Positions 59,301 through 63,603 of a stretch of 64,000 nucleotides of DNA are shown here, piece by piece (within the stretch, counting starts at the first letter, position 1; the number at the start of each line of letters is the position of its first letter). The position numbers were made by a program, and so were the translations under genes. The stretch lies in assembly GCF_021134715.1 (NCBI RefSeq), contig NC_060026.1, positions 434,001-498,000 of the forward strand. Direction: 5' to 3'. Origin of the DNA: Daphnia pulex. Taxonomy: Eukaryota; Arthropoda; Branchiopoda; Diplostraca; Daphniidae. The notes under the pieces were generated by a model. That model was given only the letters and a program-made list of their open reading frames with translations, was not told the DNA's origin and searched no databases.

Positions 59301-60053
59301 TGAAATCGTGGTAGGCTGTGACTTGAGCTCGCAACAGTCGGGAAAGAAACTCAAACATATCCGACATGTTAGCCGTCAGTCCCTGTTGAAGATCTCTGCG
59401 TCGAACGGCATCTACTGACTGAAAAACGGCCACATCTTCTGCTAGGCGAAGAAGTACAAGAAGGACCAACTAAAAACAAAAACCATTTAAAAATCCTTTT
59501 TGATGAAAAATAAGTAATATAACAGTTGATTTACCTCTATTTGGTATTCTTTTCCAACTTGAGCCAAGTCTGTCAGCTCTTGAAGGAAGGTGGGCCACTG
59601 TTGAGGCCACTCTCGTTTTACCATTTCTACCACCAATCTTGCTATCCCGTCTTTGATGTAAGTAGGATCATTCATGTCAGTGCCACTTCCCATCAGATTC
59701 CACACAGCATTCTACAGAAAGAGAATAGTTAATGATTGACTCCTTGGAAAGCAAAATAATAATACTTTAATTGATAGTTTCTCCTGGGGATGCATATCTT
59801 TCCACCTAAATTTGATGCAGTGCTCAACAAGCTGCAAACCAAAATGTCTCACAGTTGGATTTTTTGTAGATCCAGCAAGTTGCACACCAACAGCTGCACA
59901 TAGTGGAGATTGTTCTTTAAATCTCTCGCAAAGATTGTATGCTTGATTTCTGGCATCAGCTGTGGCTGTTGGGGACAGAGCAACGTCCACTGCAAGAATC
60001 AATTGCTCAGCTTCAGCTGACAACTGTGGCGGAAGATTACCGTGTCCTTCCAT
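56314..60053 (-). CDS. XPO5: Exportin-5
   Basis: Five minus-strand exons: 60053-59766, 59711-59535, 59469-59110, 59043-56524 and 56460-56314, phases consistent, giving 1163 aa (human 1204). The N-terminus has the importin-beta type start (TVRHFGLQLVEHCIKFRW) and the exportin-5 signature (DGIARLVVEMVKREWPQQWP, LVLLVLLRLAEDVAVFQSVD, RRRDLQQGLTANM). The rest is HEAT-like helical repeats, ending LADVGLADLFIQE. Exportin-5 carries pre-microRNA hairpins from nucleus to cytoplasm with RanGTP. The fourth exon is 2520 nt without an intron. The start is the first ATG of the open frame. Confidence 0.95.
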
Positions 60054-60379: not shown

Positions 60380-60770
60380 ATTGGAAAATTTATTTGTTAA
60401 TACCAAGTGTTAAAAACTAGAGATAAAACTGAAAAAACAAAATCAATCAATGAAAATTAGATCATTCCTGGGAAGTCGTGCTCCATTTGATGAGGCTGAT
60501 ACTGAATTTTGAATGAGGATTTGGGTCGGTAATGGCGGGTTGTTTTCGTACAGCACCAGCTTCATTTTATCGGCATCCAAAATTTTGCCTTCCATCACAC
60601 GATTAACTTATGGTAAACTTTTGACAAGAAAATCTTCTCTTTTTATTTCCCCATTTGCATCGGTAACCTCTTCGTTAGTTGTTACAGCTCTAAGCACGTG
60701 TACGAAATTTTTCTTTACAGACAAGTACACAATCACATTTTTTTACAAAAAAAAAAATGTTCTTTCCCTT
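60380..60770 (-). pseudogene. Partial duplicate of the HSP70-like 3' end
   Basis: Positions about 60380-60620 repeat 61110-61340, the last coding part and 3' UTR of the neighbouring HSP70-like gene. Shared segments include GCCTTCCATCACACGATTAA and TTTGTTAATACCAA. The minus strand spells VNRVMEGKI and DKMKLVLYENNPPLP, but it is cut off at a stop before the conserved domain. The 150 bp upstream is not HSP70. A truncated relic, not a gene. Confidence 0.65.
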
Positions 60771-61184: not shown

Positions 61185-63603
61185 TCAATCAATTAAAATG
61201 GGATCAGTCCTTGAAGCTCCAGTCGATGATGATGATGACTTTTGACTGAGGGTTTGAGTTGGCAATGGCGGGTGGTTTTCGCACAGGACCAGTTTCATTT
61301 TTCCGGCATCCGAAATTTTGCCTTCCATCACACGATTAACTCCACCATTAATTGATTGAGTTATTTTATTTTCACGGCCTTCAGTTGATTTATCAGAAGC
61401 TGTCACGGTTAACATACCGTTGGCGTCAATTTCGAAAGTAATTTCGATCCTTGGTAGACCACGTTTAGCAGGATAAATTCCAGATAAAATAAATTTTCCC
61501 AAAAGTATGTTATCACGTGTCATTGCCCCTTCTCCTTCGTACACCTGAATAAGAACGCTGGATTGGTTGTGAATTTTTGTAGTGAAAATCTTAGTTTGCT
61601 TCGCTGGAATCCTGCTGTTGCGTTCAATAAAAGTGGACATCACTCCCTCAACGATTTCAATCCCAAAAGAATGAGAGCTGGCTTCCAGTAGAAGGAAATC
61701 CTTTGCTGCTTCCAAACTATATCCAGAAAGAAGAGCAGCTTGAACTGTAGCTCCACAAGCGACAGCTTCGCCATGATGAAGGGATTTATTCAACTCCTTG
61801 CCGTCGAAGAATTGCTGCAACAGTTCCTGAATCTTAGGTATGCGCGTAGATCCGCCTACTAGAACAATTTCATTGATTTCTTTCTTGTCCATTTTTGCGT
61901 CAATGAGAGCCTTTTTGACAGGTTCCAAAGTTCGGTGAAAGAGATCAACACACAATTTTTCAAAATAGGATCTAGTAACGGGGGCGTAGAAATCGAAGCC
62001 TTCGCAGAGCGAGAGGATTTCAATGGTCGCTTCAGTCAAATGAGAAAGCGTCCGTTTAGCTCCCTCGCAGGCAGTTCGAAGTCGGCGCATTGCGTGTGGG
62101 TTAGACGATAAATTGCCTTGTTCCTTCTTGAGTTTTTTGGCAAGATCGTCAACCAACTGAATGTCAAAATCTTCGCCACCCAAATGAGAATCGTTGGCTG
62201 TCCCCTCTACCTGAAATATTCCACCTTTGATGGAGATGACTGAAACATCGAGGAAACCACCACCAAGGTCGTAGATCAACACATTTTTTACTTCCGCAAA
62301 TTTGTTCTCGAGACCTTAACAAAAAAATAAAAGAAGATCAATATTTATCTACACGTACTTCTAAACAAATAATATTTACCATATGCCATAGCTGCGGCTG
62401 ATGTTTCATTCTGGACTCGCAGGACATTCAGACCAGCAGAAATCCCCGCGTTCTTGATTGCTTGGCGTTGGAAGTCGGTGAAATGCGCAGGAACAGCAAT
62501 AACTGCATTCGTTACCTTTTCACCTAAGTAAGCTTCTGCAGTTTCTTTCATTTTTTCTAGTATTATGGTTGCGACGGTGCCAGGCGTGTACGTTGTGCAC
62601 GTGCCATTGAGGTCGAACTGTACATTTGCTTGACCTTCAGCACTCTGCACAACTTTAAACGGCCAGTACTTCTGATCATTAGGCAAGGTTGAATCGGAAA
62701 ACCGACGACCAATAAGGCGCTTTGCATCTAATATAATAAAATGAGAATTTTTGTAACAAATAAATAGAGATAGAAATTAATACCAAAAATTGTGCTTAAT
62801 GGATTTGTGTCCATAAGATTTTTTGCCACCTCCCCGACAAATTTCGCTCCATTATTGAAACTTAAGCAAGATGGAGTAATACGATTATTGTGCTCATTTG
62901 CAACTATTTCCACTTTTCCATTGTGGTATACTCCTACACATGAGAAGCTGGTGCCTAGGTCAATGCCAATACAGAGCTCTTGGTTTTCTTTTTCTACAAG
63001 TAAAAACAAATAATCAAAAAAATGTAGAAAGATTAGAAGTAACGATGAATGAAGTTTCTTTAACATTATTCAAAAAATATCACTCAAATAAAATTAAACT
63101 ACACATACTAAGTATAAAGTGTTTTTAATTCATAAATAAGATTGACTCAACTCACCATCAGCATTCAACAACTTAGGTCTCTTAGCATGAGGATTACCAC
63201 CAACAGCCGAAGGGAATTTACAAACAGGAATTGTTTTTTTCTTACTGGAATGGTTTCCCTCCGGTTCCACGATCTTCCTCGGTACCATACCTCCACAGCT
63301 TTTTCTTGCTGTTAGTTTAGGTACTCTTGGTTCCACAATCTTCCTTGGTGCCATACCTCCAGTGCTTCTTCTTGCTGTTTGTTTAGGTTCTCTTGGTTTG
63401 TAGGGTCGTCTTTTTAATGTGACCTTTGGAGTAGCAGAAGTGTTTTCAGCTTCGGCTTCATCCTCCTTATTCAAAATTTCTTCAAGGGCTGCATATTCTG
63501 TTGACTGCGGTCTAGTTGTTCTCACTCTAGTACTTTTCCTAACTTCACAATTTGGAGTTTCTTTCTGTTTTGCTTGTTCATCATTTTGCTGTAAGCCATC
63601 CAT
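61185..63603 (-). CDS. Histone-H3-tail-mimic / HSP70-like fusion protein
   Basis: Four minus-strand exons: 63603-63156, 62993-62784, 62727-62380 and 62314-61185, phases consistent, giving 711 aa. Residues 1-149 (exon 1) are basic and contain two 22-residue repeats. At 73-88 [16 protein letters not shown] and at 95-110 [16 protein letters not shown] match histone H3 residues 4-18, with K14 replaced by Met in both. Exon 2 then runs in frame into an HSP70 nucleotide-binding domain ([59 protein letters not shown]) and substrate-binding domain ([32 protein letters not shown]). The phosphate loop reads [10 protein letters not shown] instead of DLGGGTFDVS, NEPT is NETS, and the helical lid and EEVD tail are missing. 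The role is unknown; a chromatin-directed chaperone or decoy is inference. No in-frame ATG lies near the HSP70 start inside exon 2. Confidence 0.75.

Follow-up and report, generated by a model that had tools for sequence, protein, structure and literature searches.

The gene under study lies on the minus strand near the end of a 64,000-nucleotide stretch of the Daphnia pulex genome (the window), which corresponds to positions 434,001 to 498,000 of contig C10 (C10:434001-498000; NC_060026.1). Genome searches covered 133,188,837 bases in 13 contigs. The gene was modeled with four exons (63603-63156, 62993-62784, 62727-62380, and 62314-61185, minus strand), which together give 711 codons and a stop without internal stop codons, and all three introns have GT-AG borders. 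The gene and its surroundings comprise the following features.

63156..63603, minus strand: exon 1; ATG, 149 residues plus 1 base; basic and Pro-rich; contains both H3-tail repeats
63331..63396, minus strand: H3-tail repeat 1; residues 70-91 (22 residues); R79 at the K9 position, M84 at the K14 position
63265..63330, minus strand: H3-tail repeat 2; residues 92-113 (22 residues); K101 at the K9 position, M106 at the K14 position
62994..63155, minus strand: intron 1; GT-AG; 22% G+C and 49% T; in-frame ATG at 63066
62784..62993, minus strand: exon 2; the HSP70 ATPase domain begins
62380..62727, minus strand: exon 3; HSP70 ATPase domain; flanking introns as in the C2 HSC70 gene in position and phase
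61185..62314, minus strand: exon 4; remaining ATPase domain, linker, beta-sandwich, and a divergent 51-residue end
60449..60607, minus strand (region 60607-60370): partial tandem copy of the 3′ end of the gene; 72% identity, query residues 1-50

Downstream lies a gene with its ATG at 60053, presumably exportin-5-like as judged from its translation, and on the upstream side the long frame of the neighboring gene ends some 870 bases from the start codon. No AATAAA was present within 285 bases 3′ of the stop. The partial copy of the 3′ end, which starts about 580 bases past the stop, is probably the remnant of a second gene copy. It carries AATAAA where the complete gene has AAGAAA, and an AG (ccataag) stands just 5′ of the copied part; it might provide the gene with a poly(A) site or an alternative last exon. 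No perfect heat-shock element was present in the 872 upstream bases; the only one with a single mismatch lies 735 bases 5′ of the start codon, and heat-shock control from this element is not convincing.

The preliminary description of this DNA had reported that exon 1 encodes two 22-residue copies of H3 residues 4-18, and recomputing the matches gave the same values, namely, 13/15 identical positions for repeat 1 and 11/15 for repeat 2. The repeats are exactly adjacent with a period of 22 residues, and 58/66 of their bases are identical. Since 20,000 shuffles of the exon 1 peptide never exceeded 9/15 against H3 4-18 (a value reached once), the H3 likeness is not due to chance. A sequence search of the PDB with exon 1 returned 129 distinct sequences at E<=10, the best 60 of which were all H3-family tails or Cse4; the best match (E 0.005) was 9uus_H, an H3 peptide with Met at position 14. 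No histone fold was recognized: exon 1 gave no Pfam match at E<=10, and no histone model was among the four Pfam families matched by the whole protein. In H3 numbering, K4, T6, A7, R8, S10, G12, G13, M14, P16, R17, and K18 are common to both repeats. They differ at Q5, K9, T11, and A15, where one of the two retains the H3 residue each time (repeat 1 has K9R; repeat 2 has T11C and A15V). If the H3 residue was ancestral at these positions, the original unit would have agreed with H3 4-18 at 14/15 positions, with Met in place of Lys14 as the sole exception. Farther 5′ in exon 1, residues 22-25 (63540-63529) form a short RKST (EVRKSTRV) that resembles H3 R8-T11 and could be a chance occurrence.

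With a repeat as the query, 29 places in the genome were found at E<=10, a lower bound; one was the query itself, and 28 translated to H3 tails, representing 10 distinct DNA sequences. A less H3-like mimic elsewhere may have been missed by this search. At least 26 of the H3 genes found with the repeat lie on C10 between 1.77 and 4.32 Mb, and 24 of these form 12 neighboring pairs, minus then plus, 5.5 to 30.5 kb apart. Two further H3-tail exons, at C1:8127767 (APSTGG) and C1:4635040 (APATGG), have open frames of 45 and 43 residues and are apparently the first exons of intron-bearing genes that we take to be of the H3.3 type. Repeat 1 has 13 residues in common with each of the 10 H3 tails, and only 0-3 of the codons involved are identical, while 3.75 would be expected under even synonymous choice. 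For repeat 2, 11 residues are in common, with 0 to 3 identical codons, and dS between the repeats and the H3 tails was too high to compute. A recent origin of exon 1 from an H3 gene found in this genome was therefore rejected, as the codons differ nearly throughout. The repeats would instead go back to an old copy held at the protein level, to convergence, or to an unseen H3 gene; either of the first two would imply selection on the amino acids. Between the repeats themselves (NG86 and LWL85 methods), dN (0.130) is close to dS (0.140), which gives no sign of purifying selection since their duplication, and two repeats are too few to say that M14 was selected. Exon 1 as a whole matched its own genome at one place as protein (E<=0.001) and at one place as DNA (E<=1; very common words skipped). 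Among viral contigs, 8 stretches matched a pattern and none was confirmed as a relative of exon 1; the same held for 116 stretches from prokaryotic contigs, a result that says little about animals.

Residues 158-660 match the HSP70 family (PF00012, E 9e-180). The assignment of an HSP70-type ATPase domain in the preliminary description was thus correct, but the protein is more precisely described as a diverged, shortened HSC70 paralogue without EEVD and with little of the lid. Identity to bovine Hsc70 is 59.2% over 502 aligned residues, and the core scores higher against Hsc70 (628 bits) than against BiP (532 bits). Of the catalytic residues of the ATPase domain, D10, T13, K71, E175, D199, and D206 are kept and T204 is changed to F; P176T, D366G, and G224N are further changes in this domain. 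The beta-sandwich is present, with 71/115 residues identical from 394 on. The alignment to bovine Hsc70 stops near its residue 508, beyond which most of the alpha-helical lid and EEVD are missing; the last 51 residues run from VNRVMEG to PILID, where the paralogue on contig C2 ends in EEVD.

This C2 HSC70 gene, which is complete, is the nearest paralogue among the places listed for the genome (a lower bound). Its internal introns correspond to introns 2 and 3 of the gene studied here, at the same codon and in the same phase (F|DAKR and YG|L). A second full-length HSC70 gene ending in EEVD (C12:1926420-1928095) has its introns elsewhere and lacks the two introns that the other genes have in common. 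In 449 columns common to the three proteins (the first four coding exons of the C12 gene), the fusion protein agrees with the C2 protein at 265 and with the C12 protein at 251; in the 45 columns that distinguish C2 from C12, it has the C2 residue 19 times and the C12 residue 5 times. Because of the common introns and this agreement, the gene is best regarded, on comparative grounds, as an old HSC70 duplicate that arose at the DNA level within the C2 lineage and whose first exon is coding. For the HSP70 core against C2, dN is 0.28, dS is 1.6-2.7 (two methods), and dN/dS is 0.10-0.17, with dS near saturation and a constraint that may lie largely on the C2 branch. The core, as judged from these values, has not drifted freely.

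The preliminary description had also joined exon 1 to the HSP70 part, and the intron structure in common with the C2 paralogue argues for this join. The donor at 63156 (ATG|GTGAGT) and the acceptor at 62993 (CTTGTAG|AAAAAG) are canonical and combine in phase 1, in frame as had been claimed. In the C2 gene, an acceptor-like site precedes the ATG by two bases and the Cys codon of CIGIDLG by 20 bases; the exon 2 acceptor studied here likewise stands 20 bases 5′ of the same Cys codon. In the C12 gene, an acceptor-like site is found six bases before the ATG and 24 bases before the aligned codon. These sites point to a 5′ UTR intron in HSC70 genes (donors were not located), and exon 1 would then stand at the place of a noncoding HSC70 first exon. 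The splice from 63156 to 62993 is likely, since the gene appears to be a C2-lineage duplicate in which the 5′ exon either turned into a coding exon or gave way to one. Exon 1 and its upstream region showed no blastn match (E<=0.1) to the DNA preceding either the C2 or the C12 HSC70 gene. In first-order Markov simulations, the given frame was open for 161 codons in 0/5000 cases. Codon usage, trained on 833 codons of the neighboring gene plus exon 4, gave no support for coding by exon 1: the gene frame scored -0.16 per codon, above the other sense frames (-0.41 and -1.04) but below the antisense frames (+0.20 to +0.42), which contain 2 to 9 stops. We consider this score uninformative for so biased a peptide.

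The anatomy is thus that of an HSC70 core (ATPase domain and beta-sandwich) behind a 149-residue exon with two copies of H3 4-18 that have Met at position 14. The preliminary description had centered on K9 and the ARKS motif. Repeat 2 does keep ARKS, but the K9 position varies (R79 and K101), whereas M84 and M106 are constant; K14 is therefore the better center. It had further suggested that Lys-to-Met changes poison SET-domain methyltransferases. Met is indeed found at the K14 position of both repeats, but the SET-domain case (K9M and K27M) does not carry over directly, because H3K14 is chiefly an acetyltransferase site. With modest confidence, we therefore favor a decoy for K14 acetyltransferases over the K9/SET-domain reading; as the best explanation of the locus, we give it a probability of somewhat under two in five (about 0.38). 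The basic, probably disordered tail would act in the nucleus as a bivalent pseudosubstrate, presenting S-x-G-G-M-x-P-R-K to H3K14 acetyltransferases (MYST enzymes, e.g., MOZ/MORF/HBO1 with BRPF, or GCN5). As Met is not acetylatable, the protein would hold or compete for the enzyme, and H3K14 acetylation would be lowered or redirected, with the HSC70 core as a carrier or a stress-regulated partner. Each step beyond the anatomy is conditional, the naming of a particular enzyme being the least certain of them.

Several observations are consistent with this proposal. S10, G12, G13, M14, P16, R17, and K18 are identical in both repeats. GCN5 is reported to recognize G-K-X-P of H3 (PMC3344931); the corresponding residues are G-M-X-P in both repeats, and X is the position of the A15V change in repeat 2. 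The H3K14 acetyltransferase NuA3 was captured with a synthetic H3 K14M peptide, and the structure described shows an ordered H3 9-18, with residue 14 placed at the catalytic residues and contacts at Met14, Ala15, and Arg17 (PMC12789522). The entry 9uus probably belongs to this work, as its peptide suggests. By sequence, residues 9-18 of this H3 1-21 K14M peptide (9uus_H) match repeat 1 at 9/10 and repeat 2 at 8/10 positions, Met14 included. The peptide differs from the repeats in being synthetic, with a free N terminus and K4me3, while the repeats are internal to a natural protein. The K14M change served to capture the complex, and inhibition of an acetyltransferase by Met14 is thus only putative. 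Many H3 readers need a free N terminus, and its lack in the tail stands against the proposal. So do K9R in repeat 1, T11C and A15V in repeat 2, the near-equal dN and dS between the repeats, the codon usage of exon 1, and the missing AATAAA.

The closest parallel is EZHIP (CXorf67) of placental mammals, an H3-like peptide with Met for the modified lysine in a disordered protein, which is reported to inhibit PRC2 competitively in the manner of H3K27M (PMC6513997). An H3-like peptide with Met at the modified lysine is found here at the K14 position of both repeats. EZHIP is also described as lineage restricted, with disordered flanks, tandem repeats, and a putative nuclear localization signal (NLS) (PMC6513997 and PMC12713659). 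The fusion protein differs in that it mimics K14 and not K27, in two copies and with an HSC70-type core, and in that its putative target would be an acetyltransferase. From cytosolic HSC70/HSP70, with which it has the ATPase domain, the beta-sandwich, and two introns (as in the C2 HSC70 gene) in common, it is set apart by the 149-residue N-terminal exon, T204F and other substitutions, and the loss of most of the lid and EEVD. HSC70-type handling of H3 in the histone supply chain would be a plausible route to such a fusion. DNAJC9 is reported to draw HSP70-type enzymes to H3-H4 (PMC8221569), so that an H3 tail on an HSC70 is not implausible.

The alternative that survives best, although it is unlikely, is that K101 in TARKS is methylated by enzymes of the EHMT/SUV39 type and then recruits HP1-like readers, bringing the core to heterochromatin or titrating HP1. 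ARKS is described as the earliest recognized motif for methylation by EHMT1/2, with WIZ and LIG1 named among the proteins that mimic H3 in this way (PMC10611923); ORF8 of SARS-CoV-2 has been reported as an ARKS-type mimic, which is disputed (PMC10833455). Repeat 2 has K4 and T6-A7-R8-K9-S10 and hence the TARKS likeness to WIZ and LIG1, but the match to H3 extends over 15 positions here rather than 4. Repeat 1 reads ARRS, lacking the lysine, so methylation would be possible in only 1/2 repeats, and the Met at K14 in both repeats is left unexplained.

A role of the basic, H3-like tail in nuclear import or histone supply, in which histone importins or H3 chaperones would recognize it and the shortened HSC70 would accompany or compete with new H3, is distinctly unlikely. 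It would fit the action of HSC70/HSP70 on H3-H4 in the supply chain (PMC8221569). Exon 1 is also rich in basic residues (32 K+R versus 18 D+E) and has NLS-like runs such as AKRPKLL, but a plain NLS needs neither 13/15 H3 identities nor Met at 14. In yeast, importin contacts H3K14, and Met would weaken this contact. The available text on H3 import in PMC9560165 has no mention of NLS, nuclear localization, or K14. That an H3-like stretch without chromatin function was fused by accident to a decaying HSC70 duplicate is, in our view, quite improbable. The near equality of dN and dS between the repeats, the four ATPase domain changes, the truncated lid, and the missing AATAAA near the stop would agree with it, but 711 codons are open across 4 exons, and H3-like residues are retained while nearly all codons differ from those of the H3 genes. 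The dN/dS ratio of the HSP70 part also speaks against decay, though the constraint belongs partly to the C2 branch.

Contrary to what had been stated, the HSP70 part does have an in-frame ATG nearby, at 63066 in intron 1. Two separate products are very unlikely. The HSP70 part would then start at this ATG with a 24-residue hydrophobic leader (from 63069 onward the frame continues open into exon 2), and exon 1 would end a transcript of its own, its frame reading through to a stop at 63130 just past which ATTAAA begins. Against this, both splice sites are close to consensus and keep the phase, Leu and Phe are expected from the pyrimidine tract of so T-rich an intron, the acceptor-like AG of the C2 gene is as far from the codon for its CIG residues as the exon 2 acceptor is here, and the core is nearer to Hsc70 than to BiP.

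Known histone mimics usually reproduce only a handful of residues, as with the ARKS motif. The mimic peptide of EZHIP has twelve (PMC6513997). In the literature listings examined, no HSP70 fused to an H3-tail module came up. The architecture here would be new, with 15 positions copied twice and Met in place of an acetylated lysine, in a protein related to an H3-handling chaperone. It would open to direct test whether mimicry by Lys-to-Met replacement, as known for methyltransferases, extends to acetyltransferases in nature. More doubtful is the further idea that it is an acetylation counterpart of EZHIP, in which an HSC70 duplicate with bivalent pseudosubstrate tails would tie the state of the chaperone to chromatin acetylation in water fleas.
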